A stretch of DNA of 54,783 nucleotides from Desulfarculus sp. (GTDB lineage Bacteria > Desulfobacterota > Desulfarculia > Desulfarculales > Desulfarculaceae): contig JACRDC010000029.1 in the NCBI GenBank assembly GCA_016218705.1, positions 1 through 54,783 of the forward strand. The letters run 5' to 3'. Every line of letters begins with the position of its first letter. Position 1 is the stretch's first letter. A program made the position numbers and the translations under genes. Below, piece by piece: positions 7,757 to 24,597 of the stretch. Under the pieces are notes generated by a model, which saw only the letters and a program-made list of their open reading frames with translations, did no database searches and was not told the DNA's origin.

Positions 7757-8194
7757 TTAGTCCGTGGTGGGGTTGCCGTAGCTGCCGTCGAAGCCACCGT
7801 CCACGATCTCGCTGAGCACCCCGCAGGTATCCTTGGGCGGGGTGAGGAAGGCGTAGCGGTTGCCCATGAGCTTGCGCGGCGCCTGGTCTATGGTGGTATA
7901 GCCCTTGGCCCTCAGTTCGTCCAGGCCGGCCTGCACGTCGGGCACGCGGTAGGAGATCAAAAAAACCCCCTCGCCCTTGGAGCGCAGGAAGCGAGCCACC
8001 TCGCAGGCGTCGTTCATGGGCTCCATCAGCTCCAGGGCCACCTGTCCCAGGTAATAGCGGGCCACGCGGATGGACTCGCTGGGCGCCTCGTAGAGCCCGT
8101 GCAGAGTCAGGCCCAGGATGCCCTCGTACTGGCGGCGGGCCTGGTTCAGGTCCTTCACCGCGATGCAAATATGGTCTATGGACTGGGCCTGCAA
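7757..8194 (-). CDS. VOC-family protein, methylmalonyl-CoA-epimerase-like
   Basis: A 145-residue vicinal-oxygen-chelate protein that follows the methylmalonyl-CoA epimerase layout: SIDHICIAVKDL at the start, VALELMEP in the middle, GVLSEIVD near the end. Of the metal ligands expected in epimerases, His8, the central acidic residue (Glu55) and Glu129 are present. The conserved His in the GEGIHH motif is missing, because here it reads GEGVFL (residues 75-80). It may therefore act on a different acyl-CoA or lack normal metal chemistry. The start is TTG at 8194, six bases after AGGGAGG. It is the last gene of the leftward operon, 23 bases after the molybdenum subunit. Together with the mutase of the rightward operon, an arylmalonyl- or arylsuccinyl-CoA epimerase is a reasonable guess. 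Confidence 0.7.
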   Translation of the reverse strand: MQAQSIDHICIAVKDLNQARRQYEGILGLTLHGLYEAPSESIRVARYYLGQVALELMEPMNDACEVARFLRSKGEGVFLISYRVPDVQAGLDELRAKGYTTIDQAPRKLMGNRYAFLTPPKDTCGVLSEIVDGGFDGSYGNPTTD

Positions 8195-8217
8195 GGCGTG
8201 CCTCCCTGACTTGGTGA

Positions 8218-10524
8218 TTACTTCTGCGGCCCCCGGGCGGGCAGGCCGGCCTGCTTCTCCTGGATGGCTTTGAGCACCCTGGCGGGGGTGAGCGGGTACT
8301 CGAAGACCGGCCGGCCGATGGCGTTGGCCACCGCCCCGGCGATGGCCTGGGCGGCGCTCATGGCCGCCGACATGCCCGCCTCCTTGGCCCCGAAGGGGCC
8401 GCTCTGGTCCATGCTCTCCACGATGATGTTGGCCATGGCCGGCATGTCGCAGGCCAACGGCACCTTGTAGTCCAGGAAGCTGGGGTTGAGGCAACGGCCT
8501 TCCCTGGTCCACAAGAACTCCTCGGCCAGCATGCCGCCCACGCCGCCCATGCTGGCCCCGCCCTCGAACTGCCCCTCCACCACCAGGGGGTTCAAGGCCC
8601 GGCCGCAGTCCTGGCTCAGCACCAAGTTGAGTATCTTGACTTGTCCGGTGGCCGGGTCCACCTCCACCTCGGCCACGCAGGCCCCGAAGCTGAAGGTCTC
8701 GCTGAGTTGGCCGAAGGGGTTCTTTAGCCACTCGCGCTTGTTGTCCACCCGGGGAAAGAACGATCCCCGGCCCATGACGGGCCGGCCCTGGGCCAGGGAC
8801 AGGCGCACGGCCTTGGCGATGGGCAGGGCGCGCGTTGGCTCGCCAGCCACCATGATCTGGCCGCCCTGGGCTTCCAACTCCTGGGGCGCGGCCTGGAGGG
8901 CCGGGGCCGCCACGGCCAATAGCTGGGCCAGGGCATCCTGGCAGGCAGCCTTGACCGCCCCGCCGCCGGCCAGGGTGGAGATCATGGAGTAGGAGCCGGG
9001 GTCGTTGGGCGTGGCCTGTGTGTCGGCGCTGATGAGCTGGATGTCGGCCAGGTCCAGGCCCAGCACCTCGGCGGCGATCTGCACCAGCATGTGGTCGTTG
9101 CCCTGGCCGTTGTCCACCACGCCGCTGATCACCGTGGCCCCGCCGTCTTCGTTGAACTTGACCATGGCCGAGGAGCCGCCGCGTATGCCCATGGGGAAGC
9201 CGGTCTGCACTGAGTTGGTGCCCAGGCCGATGCCGCGCCAGGGCGGCAGCTTGCCGTATTTGTCGCGCCAGCCGGCGGCCAAGGCCGATTTGGTGATGCA
9301 CTCCGTGAGGCCGCAGGACTGCACCAGGCTACCTGTGGGCGTGGTCTCGCCAGCCTGGCGGGCGTTACGCAGGCGCACCTCCAGGGGGTCCAGGCCCAGC
9401 TCCTCGGCCAAGAGGTCCAGTTGCAAGTCCACGCCCGAGGCGAAGGCCCGGCCATGCACCCGGTACATGCCGCCGATGGGCTTGTTGGTGTAGACGCGAT
9501 AGCCGTTGAAGCGCACGTTGGGGAGCTTGTAGCACTGCTCCATGCACAGGAAGGGCACGCTGGTGGCGATGGGGCCGGTGCTGCTGTAGGCGCCGCCGTC
9601 CATATAGCAGGTGATGTCGCGGGCCAGCACCCGGCCCTCTTGGTCCACGCCGGTCTTTATCATGGTGAACATGCCGTGGCCCTTGCGGGTGGCCAGGCTG
9701 TTCTCCTCGCGGCTGTACACCAGGCGCACTGGCCGCTGGGCCTTGATGGCCAACAGCGCGGCGATGAACTCCGCCGGGAAGACGTCGCTGCGCCCGCCAA
9801 AGGCCCCGCCGATGGCGCATTTGCGCACGATGACCTTGCCCAGGGGCAGCTTGAGCGCGTTGGCCAGGGCCTTGGCCTTCTGGTGCGGGGCGGCGTTGGG
9901 CATCCACAGTTCAAGGGAGCCGTCGGCCAGGGGGTTGGCCACCACGGCGTAGGGCTCGGTCATGAAATAGGAGTCCTCAGGCGCGCTGAAGGTATCCTCG
10001 CGCACCAGGTGGCTCTCCCTAAAGCCCCGCTCCACGTCGCCCACGTTGATGTGCACGTGCACGTTGATGTTGTGGGGGTGGTCGTCATGCAGCAGGGGCG
10101 CGCCCTCGGCCATGGCCTCCCAGACGTTCAGCACCACGGGCAGGGGTTGGTATTGCACCTTGATGAGCGCGCAGGCCTCCTCGGCGGCGGCCAGGCTCTC
10201 GGCGGCTACCGCCGCCACCTCCTCGCCCAAAAAGCGCACGCGCTCCACGGGCAGGAGCACCTGGTCGCGGGTGTAGCGGAACACGCCCCACTTCACGGCG
10301 GCGCTGTCCTGGCCGCTGACCCCCGCCCGCACCCCAGGGACGGTCAGTGCCTCGCTGTAGTCCACGCCCAGGATGCGGGCGTGGGCATGGGGCGAGCGCA
10401 GCACCTTGGCGTGCAGCATGCGCGGCAGGCGGATGTCGCCGGCGAACAAAGCCGCGCCCCGGGCCTTGGCCTCGGAGTCCACCCGGGGCAGGCGCTGGCC
10501 CACGTAGCGCAACTGGGGGCTCAT
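8218..10524 (-). CDS. Molybdenum hydroxylase-family large subunit, 4-hydroxybenzoyl-CoA-reductase-like, atypical active site
   Basis: A 768-residue molybdopterin-cytosine-dinucleotide subunit of the xanthine dehydrogenase family. It begins with the usual YVGQRLPRVDSEAKARG segment and has the cofactor loop IGGAFGGRSD. Two family hallmarks are altered. The catalytic Glu of the G-x-G-E motif near the C terminus is replaced by Met718 (GAKEAGMSAAM), and the usual A-x-R-G-[FY]-G segment reads MYRVHGRAF. The enzyme may therefore do different chemistry from a hydroxylase, or be reductive. Its companion FAD subunit has the [4Fe-4S] loop of 4-hydroxybenzoyl-CoA reductase. The start overlaps the stop of the iron-sulfur subunit (ATGA at 10524-10521), so the three subunits are made together. 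Confidence 0.85.
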   Translation of the reverse strand: MSPQLRYVGQRLPRVDSEAKARGAALFAGDIRLPRMLHAKVLRSPHAHARILGVDYSEALTVPGVRAGVSGQDSAAVKWGVFRYTRDQVLLPVERVRFLGEEVAAVAAESLAAAEEACALIKVQYQPLPVVLNVWEAMAEGAPLLHDDHPHNINVHVHINVGDVERGFRESHLVREDTFSAPEDSYFMTEPYAVVANPLADGSLELWMPNAAPHQKAKALANALKLPLGKVIVRKCAIGGAFGGRSDVFPAEFIAALLAIKAQRPVRLVYSREENSLATRKGHGMFTMIKTGVDQEGRVLARDITCYMDGGAYSSTGPIATSVPFLCMEQCYKLPNVRFNGYRVYTNKPIGGMYRVHGRAFASGVDLQLDLLAEELGLDPLEVRLRNARQAGETTPTGSLVQSCGLTECITKSALAAGWRDKYGKLPPWRGIGLGTNSVQTGFPMGIRGGSSAMVKFNEDGGATVISGVVDNGQGNDHMLVQIAAEVLGLDLADIQLISADTQATPNDPGSYSMISTLAGGGAVKAACQDALAQLLAVAAPALQAAPQELEAQGGQIMVAGEPTRALPIAKAVRLSLAQGRPVMGRGSFFPRVDNKREWLKNPFGQLSETFSFGACVAEVEVDPATGQVKILNLVLSQDCGRALNPLVVEGQFEGGASMGGVGGMLAEEFLWTREGRCLNPSFLDYKVPLACDMPAMANIIVESMDQSGPFGAKEAGMSAAMSAAQAIAGAVANAIGRPVFEYPLTPARVLKAIQEKQAGLPARGPQK

Positions 10525-11018
10525 GGCTGTTCCTCCCCAGGCGCCGCCTGGCCCAGGGCGGCCACGGCCTCCACGATCTTGGCGTAGCCGGTGCAGCGGC
10601 AGACGTGGCCCGAGATCTGGCGGCGTATGGCTGCCTCGTCGGGGAAGGGCTCACGGCTCAGCAGATCGCGGGTGGCCATGAGCATGCCCGGAGTGCAATA
10701 CCCGCACTGGATGGCCCCGTGCTCGATGAAGGCCCGCTGCTCGCGGGAGAGCTCGCCACCCTGGGCCAGGCCCTCCACGGTGAGCACGGAGAGGCCTTGC
10801 GCCTCCAGGGCCAGGGTCAGGCAGGCGCGCCGGGGCTGGCCGTCCACCAGCACGGTGCAGGCCCCGCAGACGCCCTCGCCGCAGCCCTCCTTGCTGCCCG
10901 TGAGTTCCAGGCGGTCGCGCAGCACCTCCAAGAGGGTTTCCTGGGGCGCGATCAAAAGCTCCACTCCCTGGCCGTTTACCTGGGCGCCGAAGATTTGCTT
11001 GGGCCGGGGTTGGTCCAT
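10521..11018 (-). CDS. (2Fe-2S) subunit of the 4-hydroxybenzoyl-CoA-reductase-like enzyme
   Basis: A 165-residue subunit with the two cluster sites of this family. A plant-type site (GCGEGVCGACTVLVDG, with a further Cys after it) is followed by a helical-domain site (QCGYCTPGM ... CRCTGY). It passes electrons between the molybdenum centre and the FAD subunit. ATG at 11018 follows GGGAGG and overlaps the TAA of the upstream FAD subunit by one base (TAATG). The downstream overlap with the molybdenum subunit is ATGA. Length and motif order are normal for the family. Confidence 0.92.
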   Translation of the reverse strand: MDQPRPKQIFGAQVNGQGVELLIAPQETLLEVLRDRLELTGSKEGCGEGVCGACTVLVDGQPRRACLTLALEAQGLSVLTVEGLAQGGELSREQRAFIEHGAIQCGYCTPGMLMATRDLLSREPFPDEAAIRRQISGHVCRCTGYAKIVEAVAALGQAAPGEEQP

Positions 11019-12028
11019 TAGATACCTCCCTGAGCCCGGCTGGCGGCGCGCTCCAGGGCGCGGGCCACCACCACCGGCACCATCTGCGCCCGCCAGGCCG
11101 CTGGGGTGGAGTGGTTTTCGATCATAAAGGGCGCGGCGTCCCGCCCGGCTTGGGCCGCCGCCTGGGCCAGGTTCTCCGGCGTGGGGGCCTGGCCCAAGAG
11201 CGGCTCCATGGCAGTTTTGAGCAAGAGCGGCGCGGCAAAGACCGCCCCCAGGGCCAGGCGCGCGCTGGCGATGAGGCCTCCCTCGATGCGCATGGCCGCG
11301 CCGGCGCTGAGCAGGGGGAAGTCCACGGCCCCCCGGCTGGCCATCTTGACGTAGGCCGAGCCCAGGCCCGGGCCTGGGCGCTCCAGGATGACGTGGGTGA
11401 GCATCTCGTCGGGGCCGATGTCCTGGGGGCGCTCGCCCTGGCCGGTGAAAAAATCGCTGAGTGTCAGGGTACGCTGTCCGGTGGCGCTTTGCAGCACCAC
11501 CGAGGCCCCCAGGGCCATGAGCATCACCGCGCCGTCGGACTGGCAGGTGGAGCGGCAGCGGTCGGCACCTGCCCCGCCGGGGTGGCACACCTCGCCGCCC
11601 AGCTTGAAGCAAGGGGCCAGGCCGGCGCGCCACAGGGCGCTCTGGTTGTAGTGCAGGCAGCGGGTCTGGGCGCAGAGGTTGCCACCCACCGTGGCCACGC
11701 GCTGTTGCAGGGTGGGCGCGCCGATGGCGGCACAGGCCTCGGCCAGGCCGGGCAGCTCGCGGGCTATCAGTGGAAGGCTCAGGGCCTGGTGCAGGGTGGT
11801 CTGGGCGCCCAGGCGCAGGTGATTGGCTTCCTCGCTCAGGCCGGCCAACTCGGGGGAGAGGTGCTTGAGGCTTATCAGGGCCTCGGGGCTGACCAGGCCT
11901 TGCTTGGCCCGCGTCAGGAGGTCGCTGCCGCCGGACAACCAGGCGGCTTGGCCGCCCCAGAGGGCCTTTTGCTCCAGGGCCTCGGCCAGGCTCAGGGGGG
12001 CCAGGTATTGGAAGTGGGGCAGGGACAT
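11018..12028 (-). CDS. FAD subunit with extra [4Fe-4S] loop, 4-hydroxybenzoyl-CoA reductase beta-like
   Basis: A 336-residue FAD-binding subunit of the molybdenum hydroxylase family (LSGGSDLL and VATVGGNLCAQTRC are the flavin-contact regions). Between residues about 119 and 165 it carries an insertion with Cys124, Cys140, Cys148 and Cys158. Spacings of 16, 8 and 10 and the phrase CLHYNQSALWR agree closely with the [4Fe-4S]-binding loop of 4-hydroxybenzoyl-CoA reductase beta subunit from Thauera aromatica (ligands at 122, 138, 146 and 155 as I recall). In that enzyme the extra cluster lets low-potential ferredoxin electrons enter for reductive dehydroxylation. It is the first gene of the leftward operon, with TATAAT 36-41 bases upstream of the ATG on this strand. 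Confidence 0.9.
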   Translation of the reverse strand: MSLPHFQYLAPLSLAEALEQKALWGGQAAWLSGGSDLLTRAKQGLVSPEALISLKHLSPELAGLSEEANHLRLGAQTTLHQALSLPLIARELPGLAEACAAIGAPTLQQRVATVGGNLCAQTRCLHYNQSALWRAGLAPCFKLGGEVCHPGGAGADRCRSTCQSDGAVMLMALGASVVLQSATGQRTLTLSDFFTGQGERPQDIGPDEMLTHVILERPGPGLGSAYVKMASRGAVDFPLLSAGAAMRIEGGLIASARLALGAVFAAPLLLKTAMEPLLGQAPTPENLAQAAAQAGRDAAPFMIENHSTPAAWRAQMVPVVVARALERAASRAQGGI

Positions 12029-12146: not shown

Positions 12147-12220
12147 CCACCCAAGATATGATAACCCGGCCAGTCCAGGCCCGTCAACACCTCCCAGGGC
12201 CGCGAAAAAGGCGAACCAAC

Positions 12221-13408
12221 ATGCAGCCACTATCGGAACTGACCGTGCTGAGCCTGGAACAGGCCACCGTGCTGCCCTACCTCACCTACCGCCTGGCCCA
12301 GGACGGCGCCCAGGTCATCCGCCTGGAGCACCCGGTCTACGGCGACCCCAACCGCCTGGTGGGCGAGCCCCTGCCGGGCCAAGAGCGCATGAACCGCTAC
12401 TTCCTGTGCATCAACGCCGGCAAGAAGGCCATCACCCTCAACCTGGCCGAGGCCCAAGGGCAGGAGCTTCTGGCGCGGCTTTTGGTGGAACTAAAGGTTG
12501 ACGTCTTCGCCACCAACCAGTTGCCCAGCAGCTACCGCAAGCTGGGAATCAGCTACGAGCAGCTTAAGCAGGTCAAGCCCGACCTGATCTGGCTGGGGGT
12601 GAGCGGCTTCGGTCCCGATCATCCCGAGCCGGCCTACGACCCCATCCTGCAGGCCCGGGGTGGGCTCATGGAGCTGACCGGCCCGGCCGGCGGCGAGCCC
12701 CAGGTGCTGGGCATACCGCTGCCCGACATGGGCGCCAGCGAGCACGCCTACGGCCTGCTGATGAAGGCCCTGTACCAGCGCCAGCGCAGCGGCCAGGGCG
12801 CGGCCTTGAACGTCTCCATGTTCGCCTCCACCCTGAGCTGGCTCACGGTGCCCATAACCCTGACCGGCAGCTTCGGCGAGACCATCACCCGCCGGGGCAA
12901 CACCCATCAGTTCTTCGCGCCGGTGAGCGTCTACCCCACCCGGGACGGCTTCGTCTACCTGGCCGTGGGCAACGACCGCCAGTTCCAGGCCCTGGTGGGC
13001 TTGCCCGAGTTCAGCAGCCTGGACCGGCCGGAGTACGCCAAGAACCTGGGGCGCATCCACGACGTGGACAACCTCAACCGCCAGATAGCGGCTATCACCA
13101 GAGGCGTGACCAGCGACGAGCTGCTGGGCAAGCTCCTGGCCATCCGCCTGCCTGCCTCTAAGATACAGACCATCGCCGAGGTGCTGGAAGACCCCCTGGT
13201 CAGGCCCAGCCTGCTAAAGAGCCGCGACCCGGTCACGGGCACGGATTTGGTGCTGGCCCCGCCGCCCCATCCCACGGCCTATCTGGAAGAGCGCGGACAG
13301 ACCCTGGACTTCCCGCCGCGTTTCGGCCAGCACAACGCCGAGGTGTTGGGCCGCCTGGGCCTGGGGCCGGATGAGCTAAGCTCGCTGGCCCAGGCGGGGG
13401 TGATCTGA
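12221..13408 (+). CDS. Class III (CaiB/BaiF) CoA transferase
   Basis: A 395-residue family III CoA transferase, which moves CoA between acids through an Asp-bound anhydride intermediate. The family core is visible: LSLEQATVLPYLTYRLAQDGAQVIRLEHP, then GKKAITLNL, then the substrate region ILQARGGLMELTGP. The likely catalytic Asp is in PLPDMGASEHA. ATG at 12221 is preceded by a weak AAGGCGA. It is the first gene of the rightward operon, and its stop overlaps the etfB start (TGATG). In this context it probably activates an organic acid released by the HyuAB step. The phenylsuccinyl-CoA transferase of the anaerobic indoleacetate pathway belongs to the same family, but the true substrate is not shown. 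Confidence 0.88.
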   Translation: MQPLSELTVLSLEQATVLPYLTYRLAQDGAQVIRLEHPVYGDPNRLVGEPLPGQERMNRYFLCINAGKKAITLNLAEAQGQELLARLLVELKVDVFATNQLPSSYRKLGISYEQLKQVKPDLIWLGVSGFGPDHPEPAYDPILQARGGLMELTGPAGGEPQVLGIPLPDMGASEHAYGLLMKALYQRQRSGQGAALNVSMFASTLSWLTVPITLTGSFGETITRRGNTHQFFAPVSVYPTRDGFVYLAVGNDRQFQALVGLPEFSSLDRPEYAKNLGRIHDVDNLNRQIAAITRGVTSDELLGKLLAIRLPASKIQTIAEVLEDPLVRPSLLKSRDPVTGTDLVLAPPPHPTAYLEERGQTLDFPPRFGQHNAEVLGRLGLGPDELSSLAQAGVI

Positions 13409-14229
13409 TGCCCGGCCAGCCAGACAGCCCCCTGTGCGTGGCGGTGCTGGTAAAGCAGGTGCCCGACAGCGCCGAGATCAAAATGGACCCCCGCACGGGC
13501 ACCCTGATCCGCGAGGGCGTGCCGGCGGTGATGAACCCCGACGACCGCCTGGGCCTGGAGACGGCGCTGGCCCTCAAGGACAGCCTGGGCGCCCTGGTCA
13601 CCGCCCTGTCCATGGGCCCCATCCAGGCCGTGGATGTGCTCAGCGAGGCCTTGGCCATGGGAGCCGACCGGGGCGTGCTGCTCAGCGACCGCAATTTCGC
13701 CGGCGCCGACACCTGGGCCACCAGCTTCACCCTGGGGCGCGCCCTGGAGCGGCTCATGAGTCAGGGGCCGCTGGACCTGGTGATCTGCGGCCGCCAGGCC
13801 AGCGACGGCGACACCGCCCAGATAGGCCCCCAGGTGGCCGAGCACCTGGGCTGGCCCCAGGTCACCTACGTGGAGCGCCTGGAGGTGGAGGGGCGCGAGC
13901 TGCGGGCCTGGCGGCGGTTGCCCGGTCTGGTGCAGAAAGTGCTCTGCCCCCTGCCGGCGGTGGTGACGGTGCTGGCCACGCCCCAGGCCCCACGCTGGCC
14001 GCTGGTGGACCGCCTGCTCTGGGCCTGCCGCGAGGCCGCCCCCCTGGAGGTCTGGGACGCCGCCGACATCGAGGCCCCGGCGGCGCGCACCGGCCTCAAG
14101 GGTTCCCTGACCCGGGTGGTCAAGACCTTCAGTCCCAAGGGCCAGCGGGTCACCCAATGGCTGGAGGGCACGGCGGCCGAACAGAGCCAGGCCTTGCTGG
14201 CCGAGCTGCGCGGCCACAAGCTCATATGA
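13408..14229 (+). CDS. etfB: Electron transfer flavoprotein beta subunit, bifurcating-type signature
   Basis: A 273-residue EtfB. It begins with VAVLVKQVPDSAEIKMD and has MNPDDRLGLE, both typical. The nucleotide loop reads CGRQASDGDTAQIGPQVAEHL. This DGDTAQ form, rather than the DDDCNQ form of ordinary Etf, is seen in Etfs that bind a second FAD and take part in electron bifurcation. It pairs with the ferredoxin-EtfA downstream, 28 bases away, and probably accepts electrons from the acyl-CoA dehydrogenase two genes on. Confidence 0.92.
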   Translation: MPGQPDSPLCVAVLVKQVPDSAEIKMDPRTGTLIREGVPAVMNPDDRLGLETALALKDSLGALVTALSMGPIQAVDVLSEALAMGADRGVLLSDRNFAGADTWATSFTLGRALERLMSQGPLDLVICGRQASDGDTAQIGPQVAEHLGWPQVTYVERLEVEGRELRAWRRLPGLVQKVLCPLPAVVTVLATPQAPRWPLVDRLLWACREAAPLEVWDAADIEAPAARTGLKGSLTRVVKTFSPKGQRVTQWLEGTAAEQSQALLAELRGHKLI

Positions 14230-14257
14230 CGACCAGACCACACAAGGCGGCAGGCTG

Positions 14258-15445
14258 ATGGCCATCTGGGTGATCGCCGACAAATGCACCGGCTGCGGGC
14301 TGTGCGTCAAGGCCTGCCCCTACGGGGCCATGCAGGTTCAGGACAAGCTGGCGGCCTTGGGACCGCGTTGCACCCAGTGTGGGGCCTGCCTGGAGGCCTG
14401 CAAGTTCGAGGCCCTAGGGTCAGACCTGGCCGATGAGCCCCGGCCCGACCTCTCCGGCTATCGGGGCGTATGGGTGTTCTGCGAGGTGCAGGATGGCGCC
14501 CTGGCGCGGGTTTCCCTGGAGCTCTTGGGTCAGGGCGCGCGCCTGGCCGCTGAGCTGGGGCAAACCTTGGCCACCGTGCTGTTGGGTGAGGACGTGGAGG
14601 GCCTGGTGCCCGAGCTGGCCGCTCAGGGCGCTGACCGCGTGTACCTGGCCCAGGATGCGGGCCTGGCCGCCTACTCCACCCTGGCCTATACGCGGGTGCT
14701 GAGCGAGTTGATCGCCACCCACCGGCCCAACATCCTGCTGTTGGGGGCCACGCCCCTGGGCCGCGATTTGGCCCCGCGTCTGAGCCGGCGCCTGGATTTG
14801 GGGCTCACGGCGGACTGCACCGAGCTGGCAATTGACCCGGTTGACGGCGGCCTGTGGCAGACCAGGCCGGCCTTTGGCGGCAATGTCATGGCCACCATCG
14901 TCACGCCCACGGCCCGGCCCCAGATGGCCACGGTGCGCCCGGGGGTCATGGCCCTGGGGCCGCGCCGCGATGGCGCCCAGGCCGAGGTGGTGCGCCATCC
15001 GGTGAGGCTGGAGCCTGGCGATCTCCTGGTCCGGCTCCTGGCCAGCCAGGCCCAGGGCCAGCGCCCGGTGGACCTGGGCGCGGCGCGGGTGATCGTGGCC
15101 GGCGGGCGCGGCTGCGGCGGCCCCCAGGGCATGGAGCTGCTGGCCCAGTTGGCCCAGGCCCTGGGCGGCGAACTGGGCGGCACCCGCGTGGCCGTGGAGG
15201 AGGGCTGGCTCGGCCAGGCCCGCCAGATCGGCCAGACCGGCGTGACCGTGCGCCCCGACCTTTACATAGCCTGCGGCATCAGCGGGGCCATCCAGCACCG
15301 CGCCGGCTGTCTAGGGGCGCGCTACATTGTGGCCATCAACCGCGACCGGCGGGCGCCCATCTTTTCGGTGGCCGACTACGCCCTGGCCGGCGATATGTTC
15401 AAGATCGTGCCGGCCATGCTGGCGGCATTGAAGGGAGCAGCCTAG
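14258..15445 (+). CDS. etfA: Electron transfer flavoprotein alpha subunit with N-terminal 2[4Fe-4S] ferredoxin domain
   Basis: Residues 1 to about 60 form a bacterial-type ferredoxin with two cluster motifs, CTGCGLCVKACPYGA and CTQCGACLEACKFEA. The rest is a normal EtfA, ending in the FAD-binding domain with AGGRGCGGPQGMELL and YIACGISGAIQHRAG. EtfA with a fused ferredoxin is found in anaerobes in which Etf plus acyl-CoA dehydrogenase couples to ferredoxin. Here it could link the dehydrogenase downstream to low-potential electron carriers, and perhaps to the [4Fe-4S]-bearing molybdenum enzyme of the divergent operon. It ends 2 bases before that dehydrogenase gene. Confidence 0.93.
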   Translation: MAIWVIADKCTGCGLCVKACPYGAMQVQDKLAALGPRCTQCGACLEACKFEALGSDLADEPRPDLSGYRGVWVFCEVQDGALARVSLELLGQGARLAAELGQTLATVLLGEDVEGLVPELAAQGADRVYLAQDAGLAAYSTLAYTRVLSELIATHRPNILLLGATPLGRDLAPRLSRRLDLGLTADCTELAIDPVDGGLWQTRPAFGGNVMATIVTPTARPQMATVRPGVMALGPRRDGAQAEVVRHPVRLEPGDLLVRLLASQAQGQRPVDLGAARVIVAGGRGCGGPQGMELLAQLAQALGGELGGTRVAVEEGWLGQARQIGQTGVTVRPDLYIACGISGAIQHRAGCLGARYIVAINRDRRAPIFSVADYALAGDMFKIVPAMLAALKGAA

Positions 15446-15447
15446 CC

Positions 15448-16584
15448 ATGGCCCCGCGCTCCGATCCCCAGAAACTGCTGCGCCAGGTGATGGCCCGTTT
15501 CGTGCGCGAGGAGGTGGCCCCCGTGGCCCGCCAGGTGGACGAGAGCGGCCGCTTCCCCCGCGAGCTTTTCGTCAAGCTGGCCCAGATGCATGCCTTTGGC
15601 CTGCGCTATCCGGTCAAGAACGGCGGCGCCGGTGGCAACGCCACGCTCTACTGCATCATGTGCGAGGAACTGGCCCAGGGGCTTTTGTCCCTGGCGGCCA
15701 TCGCGGCCAAGCAGTGCCTCATGGCCACCAACTTTCTGCACCGCTTCGCCGACCAGGAGATGCGCCAGCGCTACTTTCTGCCGGCCCTGCGCGGCGAGCT
15801 GGTGGGCTCCTTCTGCCTGACCGAGCCCGAGGCCGGCGGCGACCTGGGGAGGGTCTCCACCACGGCGGTCAAGGATGGCGACGGCTGGGTGGTCAGCGGC
15901 ATGAAGACCTGGATCACCAATGCGCCGGTGGCTGACTTCTTCACGGTGCTGTGCCAGACCGACCCCGAGCAGGGCATCCGGGGGCTGAACTTCTTCTTCG
16001 TGCCCCGCGGCACGCCCGGCGTGCAGGTCAGCCCCGGCTTCCAGACCCTGGGCACCCGCTCCACCGAGATCAGCGAGGTGGCCTTCAACGACTGCCGCAT
16101 CCCGGCGCGCTTTCTGCTGGGCCAAGAGGGCAAGGGTCTGGGCGCCCTGTTGGCCATCTTGGCCGAGATCAGGGCCATGACCGCGGCCCTGGCCCTGGGC
16201 CTGGCCAAGGCCGCCTACCAGGCCGGCTTCCAGTACGCCAAGGAGCGCTCGGCCTTTGGCAAGACCATCAACCAGTACCAACTCATCCAGTCCAAGATCG
16301 CCAGGCTGGCCACCGATATCTGGGCCGCCGAACTGATGCTCTACGACACCACGGCCAAGATTGATGCCGGACAGCGCCCTTCCAAGGAATCCATGATGGT
16401 CAAATATTTTGCCACCGAGGTGGCCTGCCGGGCCTGCGACGAGGCCACGCGCATCCTGGGCGCCTACGGCTACTCCATGGAATACCCGGTGCAGCGCTAC
16501 TTCCGCGACGCGCGCTTTCTGTTGTACGGCGGGGGCACCCACGAGGTGCTACAAACCAACATCGCCCGCGAGTTGGGCTTCTGA
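15448..16584 (+). CDS. Acyl-CoA dehydrogenase lacking the usual catalytic glutamate
   Basis: A 378-residue FAD-dependent acyl-CoA dehydrogenase with the expected motifs: CLTEPEAGGDL and MKTWITNA for flavin and substrate binding, then FGKTINQYQLIQ and RILGAYGYSMEYPVQRYFRDAR. The catalytic Glu of the C-terminal Y-E-G-T motif is Gly362 (sequence YGGGTHEV). The alternative isovaleryl-CoA-dehydrogenase position, just before the conserved Arg242, is Ile241; a Glu lies one residue earlier (Glu240). No standard base is therefore in place. This would suit a dehydrogenase that decarboxylates an alkyl- or arylmalonyl-CoA, since loss of CO2 itself makes the carbanion. ATG at 15448 follows AAGGGAG. Confidence 0.85.
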   Translation: MAPRSDPQKLLRQVMARFVREEVAPVARQVDESGRFPRELFVKLAQMHAFGLRYPVKNGGAGGNATLYCIMCEELAQGLLSLAAIAAKQCLMATNFLHRFADQEMRQRYFLPALRGELVGSFCLTEPEAGGDLGRVSTTAVKDGDGWVVSGMKTWITNAPVADFFTVLCQTDPEQGIRGLNFFFVPRGTPGVQVSPGFQTLGTRSTEISEVAFNDCRIPARFLLGQEGKGLGALLAILAEIRAMTAALALGLAKAAYQAGFQYAKERSAFGKTINQYQLIQSKIARLATDIWAAELMLYDTTAKIDAGQRPSKESMMVKYFATEVACRACDEATRILGAYGYSMEYPVQRYFRDARFLLYGGGTHEVLQTNIARELGF

Positions 16585-16591
16585 GGGTGGC

Positions 16592-17263
16592 ATGACTGGC
16601 TTAAGCATCGAGCGCCGGCCGGTGGGCGAGCAGGTGACCGACCACATCCGCCGGCTTATCCTGAGCGGTGAGTTGCCGCCGGGCTCCCGCCTGGTGGGCA
16701 AGCACCTGGCCGAGGAGCTGGGCATCAGCCGCACGCCGGTGCGCGAGGCCCTGCACCGTCTGGCCCAGGAGAACTTGGTGGTGCGCCGCGATTCGGGTGG
16801 CTTCGAGGTGCGGCCCCTATCGGCCCGCGAGGTGGAGGAGGTGGTGGGGGTGCGCGCGGCCCTGGAGTCCTACGCCATGGAGCTGGCCGCCCAGCGCCTG
16901 AGCCCCCAGGTCTTGCAGGCTTTGCAGCGCAACGTGGAGGAATACGCCCAGGCGCTCAAGCAAAAGAAGGTCATGCGCCTGGTCAAGCTCAACACGGCCT
17001 TCCACGAGACCGTCTACGAGGCCGCCGGCTCGCGGGTGCTGCGCGGCCAGATCAACGAGTTGGCCGAGATACTGCACCGCTTCCGCGTGGCGCTCCTTAG
17101 CGAGCCCCAGGCCGCGGCGCGCTCGCTCAAGGACCACCGCCGGCTGCTGGCGGCCCTGGAAAAGGGCGACGCCCGCCTGGCCGGGCGCATTTGCCGCGAG
17201 CACGTGCTTGCCGGGGGCGAGTGGATCGTCAGCCGCCTGCAAGACCAGCAGGAGGAAGACTGA
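16592..17263 (+). CDS. GntR-family (FCD) transcriptional regulator
   Basis: A 223-residue regulator. A winged-helix DNA-binding domain of the GntR type lies at residues about 10-75 (ILSGELPPGSRLVGKHLAEE, then GISRTPVREALHRLAQENLV). It is followed by an all-helical FCD effector domain with metal-site His residues in FHETVYEAAGS and in DHRRLLAALEKGD..CREHV. FCD regulators usually repress catabolic genes and release DNA on binding an acid or CoA ester. It sits inside the operon it probably controls, 8 bases after the dehydrogenase gene, which would give autoregulation through the palindrome at 12132-12146. Confidence 0.9.
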   Translation: MTGLSIERRPVGEQVTDHIRRLILSGELPPGSRLVGKHLAEELGISRTPVREALHRLAQENLVVRRDSGGFEVRPLSAREVEEVVGVRAALESYAMELAAQRLSPQVLQALQRNVEEYAQALKQKKVMRLVKLNTAFHETVYEAAGSRVLRGQINELAEILHRFRVALLSEPQAAARSLKDHRRLLAALEKGDARLAGRICREHVLAGGEWIVSRLQDQQEED

Positions 17264-17265
17264 GC

Positions 17266-17688
17266 ATGGCCGACGCCCGCCAGAGCGCGCCCGTACGGGT
17301 GCTGGTGGCCAAGCCCGGTCTGGACGGCCACGACCGGGGGGCCAAGGTGGTGGCCTATGCCCTGCGCGAGGGGGGCATGGAAGTGATCTACGGCGGCTTG
17401 CACCAGAGCACCGAGCAGATTCTGCAGACCGCCCTGCAAGAGGCCGTGGACGTCATCGGCCTGTCAATCATGAGCGGTGCCCACCTGCCCATCTGCCGGC
17501 GCCTGATGCGGGGGCTGGCGGATAAGGGGCTCTCGCAGATCAAGGTGGTGGTGGGCGGGGTGATCCCCCAGCCCGACATACCCAGGCTGTTGGAGTTGGG
17601 CGTGGCGGCGGTGTTCCCGGGGGGCACGCCGTTGCCCGAAATCGTGGAGGGCGTGCGCCGGGTGGCTCGGGCCGCCCAGGAAGCCTGA
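17266..17688 (+). CDS. B12-binding small subunit of acyl-CoA mutase
   Basis: A 140-residue cobalamin-binding subunit. The base-off/His-on motif DGHDRG (D-x-H-x-x-G) is followed by SIMSGAHL and by GGVIPQPDIPRL, which bind the cobalamin tail. Together with the next gene it makes a two-chain adenosylcobalamin-dependent mutase of the methylmalonyl/isobutyryl-CoA mutase group. Small separate B12 subunits occur in archaeal methylmalonyl-CoA mutase, isobutyryl- and hydroxyisobutyryl-CoA mutases and the arylsuccinyl-CoA mutase of anaerobic indoleacetate breakdown. It starts 2 bases after the GntR stop and ends 5 bases before the large subunit. Confidence 0.93.
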   Translation: MADARQSAPVRVLVAKPGLDGHDRGAKVVAYALREGGMEVIYGGLHQSTEQILQTALQEAVDVIGLSIMSGAHLPICRRLMRGLADKGLSQIKVVVGGVIPQPDIPRLLELGVAAVFPGGTPLPEIVEGVRRVARAAQEA

Positions 17689-17693
17689 CTATC

Positions 17694-19331
17694 ATGGGCG
17701 TGGCCAAATACAGCAAGGACAAGCGCGGAGCCATCCAGGAGGTGGAGCTGCATAGCGGCATCAAGGTCAAGGCCTCCTACGGTCCGGAAGACCTGGAACG
17801 CGTGGGCTTTGAGTATCAACAGGACCTGGGCCAGCCTGGCCATTACCCCTTCACCCGCTCCCTGCATCCCCTGGGCTTTCGCAGCCGTGAATGGACCGTG
17901 CGCCAGTACTCGGGCTTCGGCACGCCCTCGGAAACCAACGAGCGCTTCAAGCTTCTGATAGCCCATGGCCAGACCGGGCTCAACGTGGCCTTTGACCTGC
18001 CCACCCAGATGGGCTACGACTCTGACCACCCCCTGGCCGAGGGCGAGGTGGGGCGCGTGGGCATGGCCGTGGACACCCTGGCCGACTTCGAGGCCGCCTT
18101 CCAGGGCATTGACCTGGCCAAGGTGGGGTCGGGGCTGACCATCAACGCCGTGGCCGCCATCATGCTGGCCATGTACGAGGCCCTGGCCCGGCGCTGGGGG
18201 GTGGATACCGCGCGCATCAGCGCCACGCCCCAGAACGACATTCTCAAGGAGATCATCGGCCGGGGGGCCTGGATCTTCCCGGTGCGGCCGGCGGTGGACC
18301 TGGTGGGCGACCTCATCGAGTACGCCACGGCCCAGGGGCATCTGCCACGCTGCAACCCGGTGAGCGTCTGCGGCTACCATATCCGCGAGTCCGGGGCCAC
18401 GCCGGCCCAGGAGATCGCCTTCGCCTTTGGTATCGCCTTCGCCTACCTGGACAACGTGATGGCTAGGGGCTACGGCCCCGACCAGGTGGTGGAGCGCTTC
18501 TCGTTCAACTTCAACATCTTTGGCAACCTGTGGGAGCAGGTGGCCAAGTTCCGCGCGGCGCGCAAGCTCTGGGCGCGGCTGCTCAAGGAGCGCTACGGCG
18601 TTCGGGAAGCAAAGGCCCTGTTCCTGCGCGGGCTCTTCGGCGGCGGCGGTTTCGGCCTGACCAAGGCCCAGCCCGAGAACAACATCGTGCGCGGGGCCTA
18701 CTACGCCCTGGCCGCGGCCCTTGGCGGCGCCCAGACCACGGCCCTGTGCTCCTATGACGAGGCCTACACCATCCCCACGCCCCAGGCCGCGCTCCTTAGC
18801 CTGCGCACCTTGCAGATTCTCATGGACGAGATGGGCCTGCGCGACACCGTGGACCCCCTGGCCGGCTCCTACTTCATCGAGACGCTGACCAAGGAGATGG
18901 AAGGCAAGATACTGGAGGAGATGGAGCGGGTGGAGCGCTGGGGCGGCATGGTGGCCGCCGTGGAGAGCGGCGAGGTGCAGCGCCTGGTGGCCAGCCAGGC
19001 CTTCCAGTGGGAGAAGGACCTGCTGGAGGGCCGGCGGGTCAAGGTGGGAGTGAACAAGTACACCGAGGGTGGGTCCCAGGCCGAGGTGGAGTTGCACCAG
19101 TACAGCGAGGAATCGGCCGCCCGCCAGGTGGCGTCCCTGCAAGAGGTCAAGCGCGGGCGTGCCCAACGGGAGGTGGCCCGTTGCCTGGGCGATCTGGAAA
19201 AGGCGCTTAAAGACAGGCGCAACGTCATGCCCATCCTGGTTGAATGCTGCGCGGCCTACGCCACGGTGGGTGAGATGGCCGGAGTGATGCGCCAGGTATT
19301 GGGCGAGATGAAGGAACCCTCCATCTTCTGA
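17694..19331 (+). CDS. Acyl-CoA mutase large subunit, methylmalonyl-CoA-mutase family, altered pocket
   Basis: A 545-residue TIM-barrel mutase subunit that rearranges a carbon skeleton by a radical route. It keeps the residues that bind a free carboxylate in methylmalonyl-CoA mutase: Tyr72 (RQYSGFG, Propionibacterium Tyr89) and Arg190 (IIGRGAWIFP, Arg207). The catalytic His is kept in CGYHIRESGA. It differs where the small substrate is packed: Tyr75 and Met78 of the classic enzyme (TRGPYATMY) are His58 and Gly61 here (TRSLHPLGF), as in isobutyryl-CoA mutase. A dicarboxylic acyl-CoA with a bulkier side chain is thus plausible, for example arylsuccinyl-CoA. No mutase chaperone gene (meaB/argK) is adjacent. 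Plain methylmalonyl-CoA mutase remains possible. Confidence 0.88.
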   Translation: MGVAKYSKDKRGAIQEVELHSGIKVKASYGPEDLERVGFEYQQDLGQPGHYPFTRSLHPLGFRSREWTVRQYSGFGTPSETNERFKLLIAHGQTGLNVAFDLPTQMGYDSDHPLAEGEVGRVGMAVDTLADFEAAFQGIDLAKVGSGLTINAVAAIMLAMYEALARRWGVDTARISATPQNDILKEIIGRGAWIFPVRPAVDLVGDLIEYATAQGHLPRCNPVSVCGYHIRESGATPAQEIAFAFGIAFAYLDNVMARGYGPDQVVERFSFNFNIFGNLWEQVAKFRAARKLWARLLKERYGVREAKALFLRGLFGGGGFGLTKAQPENNIVRGAYYALAAALGGAQTTALCSYDEAYTIPTPQAALLSLRTLQILMDEMGLRDTVDPLAGSYFIETLTKEMEGKILEEMERVERWGGMVAAVESGEVQRLVASQAFQWEKDLLEGRRVKVGVNKYTEGGSQAEVELHQYSEESAARQVASLQEVKRGRAQREVARCLGDLEKALKDRRNVMPILVECCAAYATVGEMAGVMRQVLGEMKEPSIF

Positions 19332-19379: not shown

Positions 19380-21485
19380 ATGAAATACAAGATCGGCATA
19401 GACGTGGGTGGCACATTCACCGACTTTCTGCTCTGCGCCGACGACGGCAGCTCGGAAATCTTCAAGGTGCTCTCCACGCCCCAGGACCCCTCAATCGGCA
19501 CCATGGCCGGCATCGCCGAGATGGCCGAATCCAAGGGGCTATCGGTGCCGCAGTTCCTGGACCAGGTCAGCGCCATCGTGCACGGCACCACCGTGACCAC
19601 CAACGCGGTGCTCACCATGCGCGGGGCCAAGACGGGGCTGGTGACCACGCCGGGAGTGCGCGACGCCCTGGAAATGCGCCGGGGCATCCGCGAGGAGCAG
19701 TACAACAATCGCTACCGCAACGTGGAGCCAGTGGTGCCGCGCTATCTGCGCCGGCCGGTGGGCGGGCGCCTGGACTACGCCGGGCGGGAGATCGAGCCCT
19801 TCAGCGACGAGGACCTGCGCGAGGCCTGCCGGCTGTTCGGGGCGGAGGGCGTGGAGGCCGTCGCCATCTGCTTCATGAACTCCTTCGCCAACCCCGCCCA
19901 CGAGGAGCGAGCCGCCGCCCTGGTGGCTGAACTGCTGCCCGAGGCCTACGTCAGCGTCTCCACCCGGGTGGTCCCCTCCATCAGGTTTTACGATCGCCTC
20001 TCCACCACGGCCCTCAACGCCTTCGTGGGTCCCATACTGCGCCGTTATCTGACCAGCCTGCTGCGCAAGCTGGACCAGGAGCGCTTCGGCGGCGTGCTCT
20101 TGATCATGCAGTCCAACGGCGGGGTCATCAGCCCCCAGGCGGCCCAGGATAAGGCCGCCGCCACCTTGCTCTCGGGGCCGGCCGGTGGACCGGTGGCTGG
20201 CATCGCCTATGGCCAGGCCCTGGGCCAGGGCGACCTCATCACCGTGGACATGGGCGGCACCAGCTTCGACGCCGCCCTGGTCAAGGACGGCCAGCCCCTG
20301 GTCACCACCGAGGGCGAGATTGACCGCCGCCGCATCGCCCTGCCCATGCTTAACGTGGTGACCATCGGGGCCGGCGGCGGCTCCATCGGCTGGATAGACG
20401 AGGGCGGGTTGTTGCGAATGGGGCCACAGTCGGCGGGTTCCCTGCCCGGCCCGGCCTGCTACGGCCTGGGCGGCGAGCTGCCCACTTGCACCGACGCCGA
20501 CCTGGTGCTGGGCTATCTGGCGCCAGATTACTTCGCTGGCGGGCGCATGCCGCTGTTCATGGACCAGGCCCGGCGGGCCATCGAGGAGCACGTGGCCTGC
20601 CACTTGGGCTACACGGTGGAGCAGGCCGCGGCGGGCATGTACCGGGTCATCAACGTAAACATGGCCGCTGCGGTGCGCGAGGTTAGCGTCAAGCAGGGCG
20701 CCGACCCCCGCGACTTCCCCCTGGTGGTGGCCGGCGGCGCTGGTCCCAACCACGCCTGCATGATAGCCCTGGAGCTGGAGATACCACTGCTCCTGGTGCC
20801 GCGCGAGTCGTCCATCTTCTGCGCGGCCGGCATGCTAATGAGCGATTTGGAGCACGACTTTGTGCGCTCCTACCCCTGCCTTCTGAAAGACTTGGACCTG
20901 GCGCGCTTCCGGGAGATCTTCGCGGACATGCGCCAACAGGGCGTGGAGCTTTTGGCCAGCGAGGGCATAGAAGAAAACCGGGTGCGCACTGTCTATTCCC
21001 TGGACCTACGCTACCTCAAGCAGTACCACGAGGTGGGCGTGGAGGTGAGCGCCGAGGAGGTGGCCGCCGGCGACGTAGAGGCCATGGCGGCGCGCTTCCA
21101 TCCCGAACACAACCGCCTCTATGGCTACGAGCTGAGCGACACCACCACCCCGGTGGAGCTCATCAACATGCGCGTGAAGACCATCGGCGTCACCGGCAAG
21201 CCGCGCCTGGGTCAGGAGCCCTACCACGGCCCCGACCCCTCGGCGGCCCTCAAGGGCCGCCGGCAAGTCTACGTGCCGGCGGCGGCCGACTTCCAGGAGG
21301 TGCCGGTCTACGACGGCGCGCGCCTGCGCCACGGCATGCGCCTAAGCGGCCCGGCCATGGTGGAGCAGGTCAACACCTCCACCTTCATTACTCCCGAGTA
21401 CCGCCTGGTGGTGGACGCCTTCGGCACCATGACCATCTACCTGCCGGCCATCGAGGAGCAAATCCTGGGGAGGATCGAGCCGTGA
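19380..21485 (+). CDS. Hydantoinase/oxoprolinase family protein, HyuA-type ATPase subunit
   Basis: A 701-residue HyuA-type subunit. It has the two phosphate loops of the actin-like ATPase fold, GIDVGGTFTDFLL near the N terminus and TVDMGGTSFDAAL at about 290-302. Between them lie HGTTVTTNAVL and LLSGPAGGPVAGIAYGQ, which are family hallmarks. Such proteins use ATP to activate a lactam or ketone carbonyl, as in 5-oxoprolinase, N-methylhydantoinase, acetone and acetophenone carboxylases, and the lactam-opening enzyme of anaerobic indoleacetate breakdown. Its stop overlaps the start of the HyuB partner (GTGA). Given the molybdenum hydroxylase downstream, ATP-driven opening of a lactam formed by that enzyme is the preferred reading. 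Confidence 0.9.
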   Translation: MKYKIGIDVGGTFTDFLLCADDGSSEIFKVLSTPQDPSIGTMAGIAEMAESKGLSVPQFLDQVSAIVHGTTVTTNAVLTMRGAKTGLVTTPGVRDALEMRRGIREEQYNNRYRNVEPVVPRYLRRPVGGRLDYAGREIEPFSDEDLREACRLFGAEGVEAVAICFMNSFANPAHEERAAALVAELLPEAYVSVSTRVVPSIRFYDRLSTTALNAFVGPILRRYLTSLLRKLDQERFGGVLLIMQSNGGVISPQAAQDKAAATLLSGPAGGPVAGIAYGQALGQGDLITVDMGGTSFDAALVKDGQPLVTTEGEIDRRRIALPMLNVVTIGAGGGSIGWIDEGGLLRMGPQSAGSLPGPACYGLGGELPTCTDADLVLGYLAPDYFAGGRMPLFMDQARRAIEEHVACHLGYTVEQAAAGMYRVINVNMAAAVREVSVKQGADPRDFPLVVAGGAGPNHACMIALELEIPLLLVPRESSIFCAAGMLMSDLEHDFVRSYPCLLKDLDLARFREIFADMRQQGVELLASEGIEENRVRTVYSLDLRYLKQYHEVGVEVSAEEVAAGDVEAMAARFHPEHNRLYGYELSDTTTPVELINMRVKTIGVTGKPRLGQEPYHGPDPSAALKGRRQVYVPAAADFQEVPVYDGARLRHGMRLSGPAMVEQVNTSTFITPEYRLVVDAFGTMTIYLPAIEEQILGRIEP

Positions 21486-23212
21486 GCCAGGTCAAGATAG
21501 ACAAGGTTTTAGTGTCCATCCTGCAACGGCGCTTCAAGTCCATCACCGAGGAGATGTCCATCGCCCTGGCCCGCACCACGCGCTCGCCCATTCTCTGCGA
21601 GGCCAAGGATTTCGTCACCGGGCTCTACGACGCCAAGGGGCGCATGCTGGAGCAGTGCGAGAACCTGCCCATCCTGGCCTTCAGCCTGGGGCCGGTCTGC
21701 GAGTACATCATCCAGTACTTCGGCGACGACATCCACGAAGGCGACGTAATCTTCCACAACGACGTTTTCTCCATGGGCAACCAGAACAACGACGTGGCCG
21801 CCTTCAAGCCCATTTTCTGGCAGGGGCGATTGGTGGCCTGGGCCGCCTGCAAGGGGCACCAGGCCGACATCGGCGGCGCGGTGCGCGGCGGCTACAACCC
21901 CGAGGCCACCGAGGTCTGGCAGGAGGGCCTGCGCATCCCGCCGGTGAAGGTCTTTGAGCGGGGCAAGCTGCGCAAGGACGTGTGGGACCTGATCTTCGCC
22001 AACATCCGCCTGGACATCGTGGCCGAGGACATGCGCGCCGAGATCGGCTCCTGCGTGGTGGGCGAGCGCGGCATATTAAAGCTTATCGAGCGCTACGGCC
22101 TGGAGTCCTTCGAGGCCCACAAGGAGCACCTCTTCGAGTCCACCGAGAAGATGATGCGCGCCGAGATCAGGGGCATCCCCAACGGCGTGTATCATGGCCA
22201 GTCCAACTGCTACTACGACGGCAAGAACCCGGGCAGCGTCTACACCATTCGGGTGGCCATCACCGTGGAGGACGAGGAGATCACCTTCGACTACTCGGCC
22301 ACCGACGCCCAGACGCCGGGCTTCGTCAACGGCACCTACACCTCAAGCGCCTCGGCCACCCTGCTAACCTTCTTGCAGATGGTCAACCCGGCCATCCCCC
22401 ACAACGACGGCATGGTGCGGCCGCTCAAGATCGTCATCCCCGTGGGCACCATCCTGAACGCCGCCTACCCGGCGGCCACCACCTACGGCAATCACCTGTG
22501 CCCCAACAACGCCGACGCCATCATGCGCGCCCTGGCCCCGGCCATTCCCGGTCGCGTCACCGCCGAGTGGAACGAGCTGTTGTGCTCGCTGACTACCGGC
22601 ATTGACCCGCGCAAAAAGGTGCCTTACGTGGACATCGGCTTCATGGGGCTAAAGGGCGGCTCCGGGGCCATCCTGGGCGAGGACGGCTACGACCACATCG
22701 GCATGATAGACGCCAGCGGCGGCGTGCTGGACCAGGACTACGAGATGTTCGAGCAGCAGACCCCGCACCTCTTGAAGAGCCATGAATACTGGCCAGACTC
22801 TGCCGGGGCGGGGCGCTGGCGTGGTGGCCTGGGCGTCATCACCGAGTTCGTCATTGGCAACGACGACACCCAGGTGGTCACCTTTGGCGACGGCGACGTG
22901 GAGCCGGCCTTGGGCGCCCACGGCGGCGGGCCGGGCACCCTGAACCAGATTTGGCTGCGTTATCCGGACGGCCGCAAGTATGTCTGCACCACCAAGGACC
23001 TGGTGCGCGGGGTGCCCCAGGGCACGCTTTACCATCAGGACGCCGGCGGCGGCGGCGGCTACGGCGACCCCAAGCAAAGGCCGGCGGCCAAGGTGGCCCG
23101 CGAGGTGCGCGACGAGATCGTCAGCCGCCAGGCGGCCCGCGAGCAATACGGCGTGGCGCTGCGCGATGACTTCTCCCTGGACGAGGAAGAAACCGCCCGC
23201 CTGCGCGCTTGA
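21482..23212 (+). CDS. Hydantoinase/oxoprolinase family protein, HyuB-type subunit
   Basis: A 576-residue HyuB-type subunit that forms the hydrolase or carboxylase complex with the HyuA partner just upstream. Typical segments are EMSIALARTTRSPILCEAKDF near the N terminus, GDVIFHNDVFSMGNQNND, and GRWRGGLGVITEF plus DAGGGGGYGDP near the C terminus. GTG at 21482 overlaps the previous stop. Exactly two subunits are present, as in hydantoinases and the indoleacetate lactamase, with no third or fourth gene as in acetone or acetophenone carboxylase. This favours hydrolysis over carboxylation. Confidence 0.9.
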   Translation: MSQVKIDKVLVSILQRRFKSITEEMSIALARTTRSPILCEAKDFVTGLYDAKGRMLEQCENLPILAFSLGPVCEYIIQYFGDDIHEGDVIFHNDVFSMGNQNNDVAAFKPIFWQGRLVAWAACKGHQADIGGAVRGGYNPEATEVWQEGLRIPPVKVFERGKLRKDVWDLIFANIRLDIVAEDMRAEIGSCVVGERGILKLIERYGLESFEAHKEHLFESTEKMMRAEIRGIPNGVYHGQSNCYYDGKNPGSVYTIRVAITVEDEEITFDYSATDAQTPGFVNGTYTSSASATLLTFLQMVNPAIPHNDGMVRPLKIVIPVGTILNAAYPAATTYGNHLCPNNADAIMRALAPAIPGRVTAEWNELLCSLTTGIDPRKKVPYVDIGFMGLKGGSGAILGEDGYDHIGMIDASGGVLDQDYEMFEQQTPHLLKSHEYWPDSAGAGRWRGGLGVITEFVIGNDDTQVVTFGDGDVEPALGAHGGGPGTLNQIWLRYPDGRKYVCTTKDLVRGVPQGTLYHQDAGGGGGYGDPKQRPAAKVAREVRDEIVSRQAAREQYGVALRDDFSLDEEETARLRA

Positions 23213-24130: not shown

Positions 24131-24597
24131 AGCGCGCGATCGAGTTCAGGCTCAACGGCCAAGCGGTACACGTGGAGGCCAGGGGCGGGCAGACCCTCCT
24201 GGAACTGCTACGGCAAGAACTAGGGTTGAACGGTGTTAAGGAGGGCTGTGGGGCCGGCGAGTGCGGGGCCTGCACGGTGATCGTGGACGGCCAGGCGCTC
24301 ACCTCCTGCATCTTCCCGGCCCTGGAGGTGGAGGGCGCCTCCGTCACCACCATCGAGGGCTTGGCCGCGCCCGACGGCACCCTGCACCCCGTGCAGGAGG
24401 CCTTTGTGCGGAATGGCGCCGTGCAGTGCGGCTTCTGCACACCCGGGCAGATATTGAGCGCCAAGGCCCTGCTGGACTTGAACCCGCATCCCAGCGAGGA
24501 GCAGATACGCACGGCCCTGGAGGGCAACCTCTGCCGCTGCACCGGCTATCAGCAGATCATCGAGGCGGTCAAGGCCGCGGCGGAGGACCAACCGTGA
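24127..24597 (+). CDS. (2Fe-2S) subunit of second molybdenum hydroxylase
   Basis: A 156-residue subunit with both [2Fe-2S] sites in normal order: GCGAGECGACTVIVDG with a later Cys, then QCGFCTPGQ and CRCTGYQQ. It carries electrons from molybdenum to FAD. It overlaps both neighbours (ATGA before, GTGA after), a sign of tightly coupled translation of the three subunits. Confidence 0.93.
   Translation: MKRAIEFRLNGQAVHVEARGGQTLLELLRQELGLNGVKEGCGAGECGACTVIVDGQALTSCIFPALEVEGASVTTIEGLAAPDGTLHPVQEAFVRNGAVQCGFCTPGQILSAKALLDLNPHPSEEQIRTALEGNLCRCTGYQQIIEAVKAAAEDQP

Follow-up and report, generated by a model that had tools for sequence, protein, structure and literature searches.

The window analyzed in this study is the whole of contig C112 (JACRDC010000029.1; 54,783 nucleotides) from a 4.2-Mb, 99% complete metagenome-assembled genome (MAG) of Desulfarculus sp. 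Three adjoining genes on its reverse strand encode a molybdenum (Mo) enzyme with a rebuilt and apparently functional active site, which is a candidate for a 2-aminobenzoyl-coenzyme A (CoA) reductase of anaerobic indoleacetate breakdown. The large, Mo-cofactor-binding subunit (HcrA-like, 768 aa; positions 8218 to 10524) contains the Pfam domains Ald_Xan_dh_C, MoCoBD_1, and MoCoBD_2; the subunit predicted to hold two [2Fe-2S] clusters (HcrC-like; 10521 to 11018) contains Fer2 and Fer2_2; and the flavin adenine dinucleotide (FAD) subunit (HcrB-like; 11018 to 12028) contains FAD_binding_5 and CO_deh_flav_C and carries an extra [4Fe-4S] loop. These are the domains by which the xanthine oxidase family is recognized at the fold level. 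The trio belongs to this family and is nearest, in sequence and in predicted fold, to 4-hydroxybenzoyl-CoA reductase (4-HBCR; PDB accession number 1rm6). The best PDB match of the Mo subunit is 1rm6_A, both by sequence (E value of 2.5e-129) and for its predicted model (predicted local distance difference test [pLDDT] score of 90; template modeling [TM] score of 0.93 to 0.94), and that of the FAD subunit is 1rm6_B by sequence and by predicted fold (TM score of 0.86 to 0.89). Among named organisms in the collection searched, the closest relative is a groundwater MAG of Desulfarculus sp., with a large subunit that is 95% identical.

The sequence-only reading that preceded this analysis had placed Cys124, Cys140, Cys148, and Cys158 in the FAD subunit, and these positions are exact. 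In the alignment to 1rm6_B, the loop that they span (11555 to 11659, reverse strand) provides what appear by sequence to be the four extra [4Fe-4S] ligands of 4-HBCR, with spacings of 16/8/10 as against 16/8/9 in 1rm6_B, and all four Cys residues are invariant in 19 diverse FAD subunits. The Cys positions and the match to 1rm6_B support the 4-HBCR-like electron-entry module, with its extra cluster loop, that had been suggested. At an E value of 1e-30 or better, the window trio is the sole match to TIGR03195, the model of the 4-HBCR β-subunit, in its genome. A large subunit of the HcrA clade is also encoded elsewhere in the genome (G000:C18; L206:1387-5109), and its FAD partner has no [4Fe-4S] loop.

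In hydroxylases of the xanthine oxidase family, a Glu residue at the Mo site, regarded as essential, serves as the base that activates Mo-OH (PMC10420851). The residue aligned with this Glu in the window protein is Met718 (codon at 8371 to 8373, reverse strand), as the earlier reading had it; the alignment to 1rm6_A is free of gaps (GPFGAKEAG-M in the window protein and GPFGAKEAS-E in 1rm6_A), and the Glu that 4-HBCR has at the catalytic position is thus absent. The Gln that lies next to Mo is likewise replaced, by Ala211, so that the pair of residues typical of xanthine-oxidase-type hydroxylases is missing. The A-x-R-G-F-G segment had been described as rewritten, which is only partly correct: the corresponding segment, M-Y-R-V-H-G-R (residues 353 to 359; 9448 to 9468, reverse strand), is largely the 4-HBCR version (GGMYRVHG in the window protein and GAMRGHG in 4-HBCR), in which the Arg is kept, His357 is the 4-HBCR residue, and Arg359 is clade specific. 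The view that the Mo site is genuinely altered was borne out, and the alteration extends beyond what had been noted, i.e., to the exchange of the Mo-site Gln for Ala or Gly and to the loss of a Ser-Arg pair on the pterin side.

The loss of the Glu is not a one-off event; it marks a conserved clade with Met or Leu at this position, which the earlier reading had missed. A first scan of one genome per species yielded 55 loci from Desulfobacterota-type lineages, Chloroflexota, and one archaeon of the Thermoplasmatota, and a second search, which covered 297 genomes of the phylum and 100 fetched regions, brought in the wider family. The 74 clade members have Met (43) or Leu (31) and never Glu at the catalytic position, whereas Glu or Gln is found there in all 91 large subunits compared from outside the clade. 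For Mo subunits whose FAD partner has the Cys loop, the survey of this position that had been called for gave 70 with Met or Leu, 42 with Glu, and 3 with Gln. The phylogeny of the large subunit, also called for, was built from 163 sequences without Desulfatiglans anilini 03875/03876; the Met/Leu proteins form one group (support of 1.0) that includes no Glu protein, and 1rm6_A lies outside it. An alignment of the window protein with eight close orthologues shows GPxGAKEAGMS in every one of them. No characterized homologue with Met or Leu was found, and therefore a proven hydroxylase sharing the Met, which the earlier reading had named as the observation that would overturn it, was not encountered.

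The other changes at the Mo site are fixed across the clade. Position 211 is Ala or Gly in 74/74 members (Gln in 80 of the 91 other large subunits), the His at position 186 has become Tyr, and the Ser-Arg at positions 514 and 515 is lost. Tyr186, His214, and Arg359 are new residues that are invariant in all 74 members, Met353 is also new and invariant, His357 and Glu715 are invariant across the clade, and Arg355 is retained in 55 of 74. Every intact FAD partner of the clade in the survey keeps the four ligand Cys residues, and dN/dS (the ratio of nonsynonymous to synonymous substitution rates) is approximately 0.13 against the 95% identical congener. Because these changes are fixed throughout the clade, with the Cys residues kept and dN/dS low, the active site is very probably rebuilt and functional. 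A sequencing error or a pseudogene was ruled out by the occurrence of the same Met in congeners, the dN/dS value, and conservation across phyla. Several residues that normally touch Mo or pterin are replaced, as would be expected of a pseudoenzyme or an electron-transfer module without Mo catalysis; we consider this extremely improbable, given the strong conservation across phyla, the new invariant residues, the dN/dS of 0.13, the joint retention of three subunits, and the XdhC-like and MoeB-like genes near some clade loci.

The trio has much in common with HcrABC of Thauera aromatica (1rm6), i.e., the three-subunit architecture, the predicted fold, the Cys loop of the FAD subunit, the Arg and His of the GAMRGHG segment, and the KEA that precedes the catalytic position. 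It differs in having Met or Leu for Glu, Ala or Gly for the Mo-site Gln, Tyr for His at position 186, no Ser-Arg in the pterin segment, and a gene context of indoleacetate (iaa) type. Against the curated cutoffs of the three 4-HBCR subunit models (TIGR03193/03194/03195), the trio scores 613.3 against 994.55, 189.8 against 404.55, and 168.9 against 257.8 bits. In the tree, 1rm6_A stands apart from the Met/Leu clade (support of 1.0), in a group with the proteins of loci L104, L118, and L005. Scores so far below the cutoffs, together with the separate position in the tree, led us to reject the trio as a 4-HBCR orthologue; it appears to work like 4-HBCR yet lies outside that family by the tests made. 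A 4-HBCR or another hydroxyaryl-CoA dehydroxylase that tolerates the active-site substitution would account for the kept Cys loop and 4-HBCR-site His, and 4-HBCR is the best characterized relative; the model scores, the separation from 1rm6_A, the loss of the Mo-site Gln, Ser, and Arg, and the linkage to iaa genes described below make this explanation highly improbable.

Several loci in the survey depart from these patterns in other ways. Gln stands at the catalytic position in other HCR-like large subunits (L104:2132-4558, L118:2079-4535, L137:6014-8281, L127:1756-4098, and L146:4166-6529); L127 and L146 each carry a Gln gene and a Glu gene in tandem. The sister group of the clade (L119, L132, L156, L169, and L181) keeps the Glu (KEVGEG or KEVGET) and has a Cys-loop FAD partner, and the usual Mo-adjacent Gln is absent from it (TSGMG, TSSMG, or LSHMG type); it may possibly be a further reductive group. 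Two clade members from Chloroflexota (L033:1205-3547 and L034:9935-12277) have no FAD or 2Fe-2S partner genes nearby; an Rrf2-like regulator gene precedes each of them and a ThiF/MoeB-like gene follows.

On the forward strand, divergent from the trio, lies an iaa-type operon. It encodes a family III CoA transferase (12158 to 13408; PF02515; IaaL-like role), which is a recurrent neighbor of the clade, the electron transfer flavoprotein (ETF) subunits EtfB and EtfA (13408 to 15445), an acyl-CoA dehydrogenase of the IaaF/benzylmalonyl-CoA dehydrogenase type (15442 to 16584), a GntR/FCD regulator (16592 to 17263), the small and large subunits of a B12-dependent acyl-CoA mutase (17266 to 19331; PF02310 and PF01642; IaaGH-like), and hydantoinase/oxoprolinase subunits A and B (19380 to 23212), with a presumed lactam-opening role. 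The iaa route uses a CoA transferase, the mutase IaaGH, and the decarboxylating dehydrogenase IaaF, of which GGG in place of the YEG of other acyl-CoA dehydrogenases is the hallmark, and strict anaerobes have a dedicated ETF paralogue in their iaa operons (PMC8360864). The hydantoinase family has a branch of predicted 2-oxoindoleacetyl-CoA lactamases (PMC5214803). The window dehydrogenase has the GGG (LLYGGGTHEV), and it shares the cluster with the two mutase subunits, the CoA transferase, the ETF, and the hydantoinase-type lactamase. Each of these assignments is at the level of the protein family; the library matches included no curated iaa model. An N-terminal ferredoxin domain on EtfA (14258 to 15445) could deliver or accept low-potential electrons. 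In the same operon as the trio, on the reverse strand, is the gene of a vicinal oxygen chelate (VOC) protein resembling methylmalonyl-CoA epimerase (7757 to 8203; Glyoxalase_4, with TIGR03081 below its cutoff); benzylmalonyl-CoA is epimerized by a methylmalonyl-CoA epimerase (PMC8360864). From this gene content, the trio genes appear to belong to an anaerobic indoleacetate cluster, a point that the earlier reading had missed.

The forward-strand operon also encodes a second Mo enzyme, an oxidative hydroxylase trio (FAD, 2Fe-2S, and Mo subunits; 23234 to 26978, forward strand; Mo subunit at approximately 24594 to 26978). The intact Glu that had been reported for this paralogue is present in a GVGE motif, as residue 742 or 743, according to which start codon is used. 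Oxidative Mo-hydroxylases (xanthine dehydrogenase and its kin, including this trio) have the same domain composition and the same [2Fe-2S] and FAD modules as the reverse-strand trio; unlike it, they retain the Glu and in most cases the Gln, and no [4Fe-4S] loop is present in the window paralogue.

The association with iaa genes recurs across the clade. Of the 72 distinct clade loci, 46 have at least one iaa-type gene no more than 4.5 kb away, compared with 2 of the 45 Glu/Gln-type Cys-loop loci, and in both of the latter it is an oxidative Mo gene alone. The epimerase-like gene neighbors the trio in 33/72 clade loci, and the linked acyl-CoA dehydrogenases have GGG nearly throughout, with a few GAG in Chloroflexota. 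Across the 297 genomes, the iaa-type mutase (called as an orthologue at a large-subunit identity of at least 59%, with a clear gap below) is present in 38 of 42 with the clade and 18 of 255 without it (Fisher test, P = 1e-29), and bamA, a marker of the benzoyl-CoA pathway, is present in 33/42 and 46/255, respectively (P = 2e-14); these P values ignore the relatedness of the genomes. In the window genome, bamA scores above the curated cutoff.

Because the trio genes sit in an indoleacetate breakdown cluster, the deamination of 2-aminobenzoyl-CoA, which is the final product of that pathway (PMC9613470), is the candidate reaction. We estimate a probability of about one-half that the trio is a 2-aminobenzoyl-CoA reductase that forms benzoyl-CoA and ammonia. 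The hydroxyaryl- or heterocyclic-CoA substrates suggested earlier are displaced by this gene context. The anaerobic reduction of 2-aminobenzoyl-CoA to benzoyl-CoA has been reported in Azoarcus evansii (PMC4539516); the literature searched yielded neither a gene for this activity nor a link to an HCR-like gene, and no sequence-defined family for a 2-aminobenzoyl-CoA reductase was found. An HCR-like enzyme of Desulfatiglans anilini (03875/03876) was proposed, from induction only, to deaminate 4-aminobenzoyl-CoA reductively (PMC7500099); its putative reaction is of the same kind as that considered here, on a para rather than an ortho amine. Urolithin C dehydroxylase (Ucdh) of Enterocloster bolteae dehydroxylates a phenolic position of a free lactone rather than of a CoA ester (PMC12771579).

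The predicted scheme, including its cofactors, direction, substrate, product, and proton donors, would run as follows. The extra [4Fe-4S] cluster in the FAD subunit would accept electrons from a low-potential donor, as in 4-HBCR, and these would pass via FAD and the two [2Fe-2S] clusters to the Mo cofactor, in keeping with the low-potential, reductive character that we, like the earlier reading, infer for the trio. The Mo site would reduce the thioester-activated ring of 2-aminobenzoyl-CoA with elimination of ammonia, and the benzoyl-CoA would feed the Bam pathway. The carboxylate that activates Mo-OH in hydroxylases would not be wanted in such a reaction, and Met or Leu would take its place; His357, and perhaps Arg359 or Glu715, may supply protons.

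The location of the trio in the same cluster as, and divergent from, the iaa operon would also suit a second Mo enzyme in the route, one that acts upstream of 2-aminobenzoyl-CoA and performs, e.g., a reduction or a Glu-independent hydroxylation, and the proposed intermediates past the first steps are all CoA esters. We regard this as distinctly unlikely. The trio is missing from 18 genomes with the iaa mutase, and the core route can therefore do without it; this absence fits a replaceable downstream step. Moreover, the expected hydroxylation is already covered by the oxidative paralogue, the Cys loop marks reductive electron flow in 4-HBCR, and the published scheme shows no vacant reductive step before 2-aminobenzoyl-CoA that we could see (PMC8360864).

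The identification as a 2-aminobenzoyl-CoA reductase also has several points against it. No member of the clade has been characterized, and the substrate and direction are deduced from gene context. Since 4-HBCR keeps its Glu, loss of the Glu is not required for reductive dehydroxylation. The match to bamA was not seen in 9 of the 42 clade genomes, those 18 iaa-mutase genomes lack the clade, and the Fisher values overstate independence because the genomes are related. In addition, a saccharopine dehydrogenase-like protein is found in 22/42 clade genomes, mostly beside the trio, and a class III aminotransferase is also present at nine sampled loci, which would be odd if ammonia simply leaves. 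We know of no role assigned to either protein in the breakdown of indoleacetate.

Because about half of the clade genomes add the saccharopine dehydrogenase-like enzyme, the main rival explanation is ring reduction in which the nitrogen is kept. The trio would then dearomatize or reduce 2-aminobenzoyl-CoA to a 2-aminocyclohexadiene or -ene carboxyl-CoA, i.e., a β-amino acyl-CoA, the amine of which would be removed later, in many species by the adjoining aminotransferase and saccharopine dehydrogenase-like enzyme. Aminotransferases dependent on pyridoxal 5'-phosphate use alkyl, not aryl, amines as substrates, a preference that counts for this explanation. The gene order of saccharopine dehydrogenase-like enzyme, aminotransferase, and then Mo/FAD genes occurs in Desulfobacterales and Syntrophorhabdus-type loci, and saccharopine dehydrogenase orthologues (at least 60% identity) are present in 25 of the 297 genomes, 22 of which have the clade (Fisher test, P = 9e-19). 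In many species, e.g., at L042:6575-8985, L043:6008-8421, L058:7556-9986, and L068:7554-9984, the saccharopine dehydrogenase-like gene and a class III (GSA-aminomutase-like) aminotransferase gene directly adjoin the trio. On the other hand, neither protein was found in the 99% complete window genome; both must therefore be optional, and the view of them as universal parts was dropped. The saccharopine dehydrogenase was not seen in 20/42 clade genomes, and its presence is not tied to loss of bamA, which is found in 17 of 22 genomes with it and 16 of 20 without it. Taken for the clade as a whole, we consider retention of the nitrogen unlikely; the linkage suggests that, in the species that have these neighbors, nitrogen may remain on the ring-derived product.

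If the trio is a 2-aminobenzoyl-CoA reductase, a gene would be at hand for the reductive removal of the amino group from aminobenzoyl-CoA by anaerobes, which has been reported since the early 1990s, and the same gene would mark the anaerobic turnover of auxin and tryptophan in groundwater and sediments. A widespread clade that lacks the Glu and is tied to one pathway would also offer a test of how the Mo cofactor carries out reductive chemistry.

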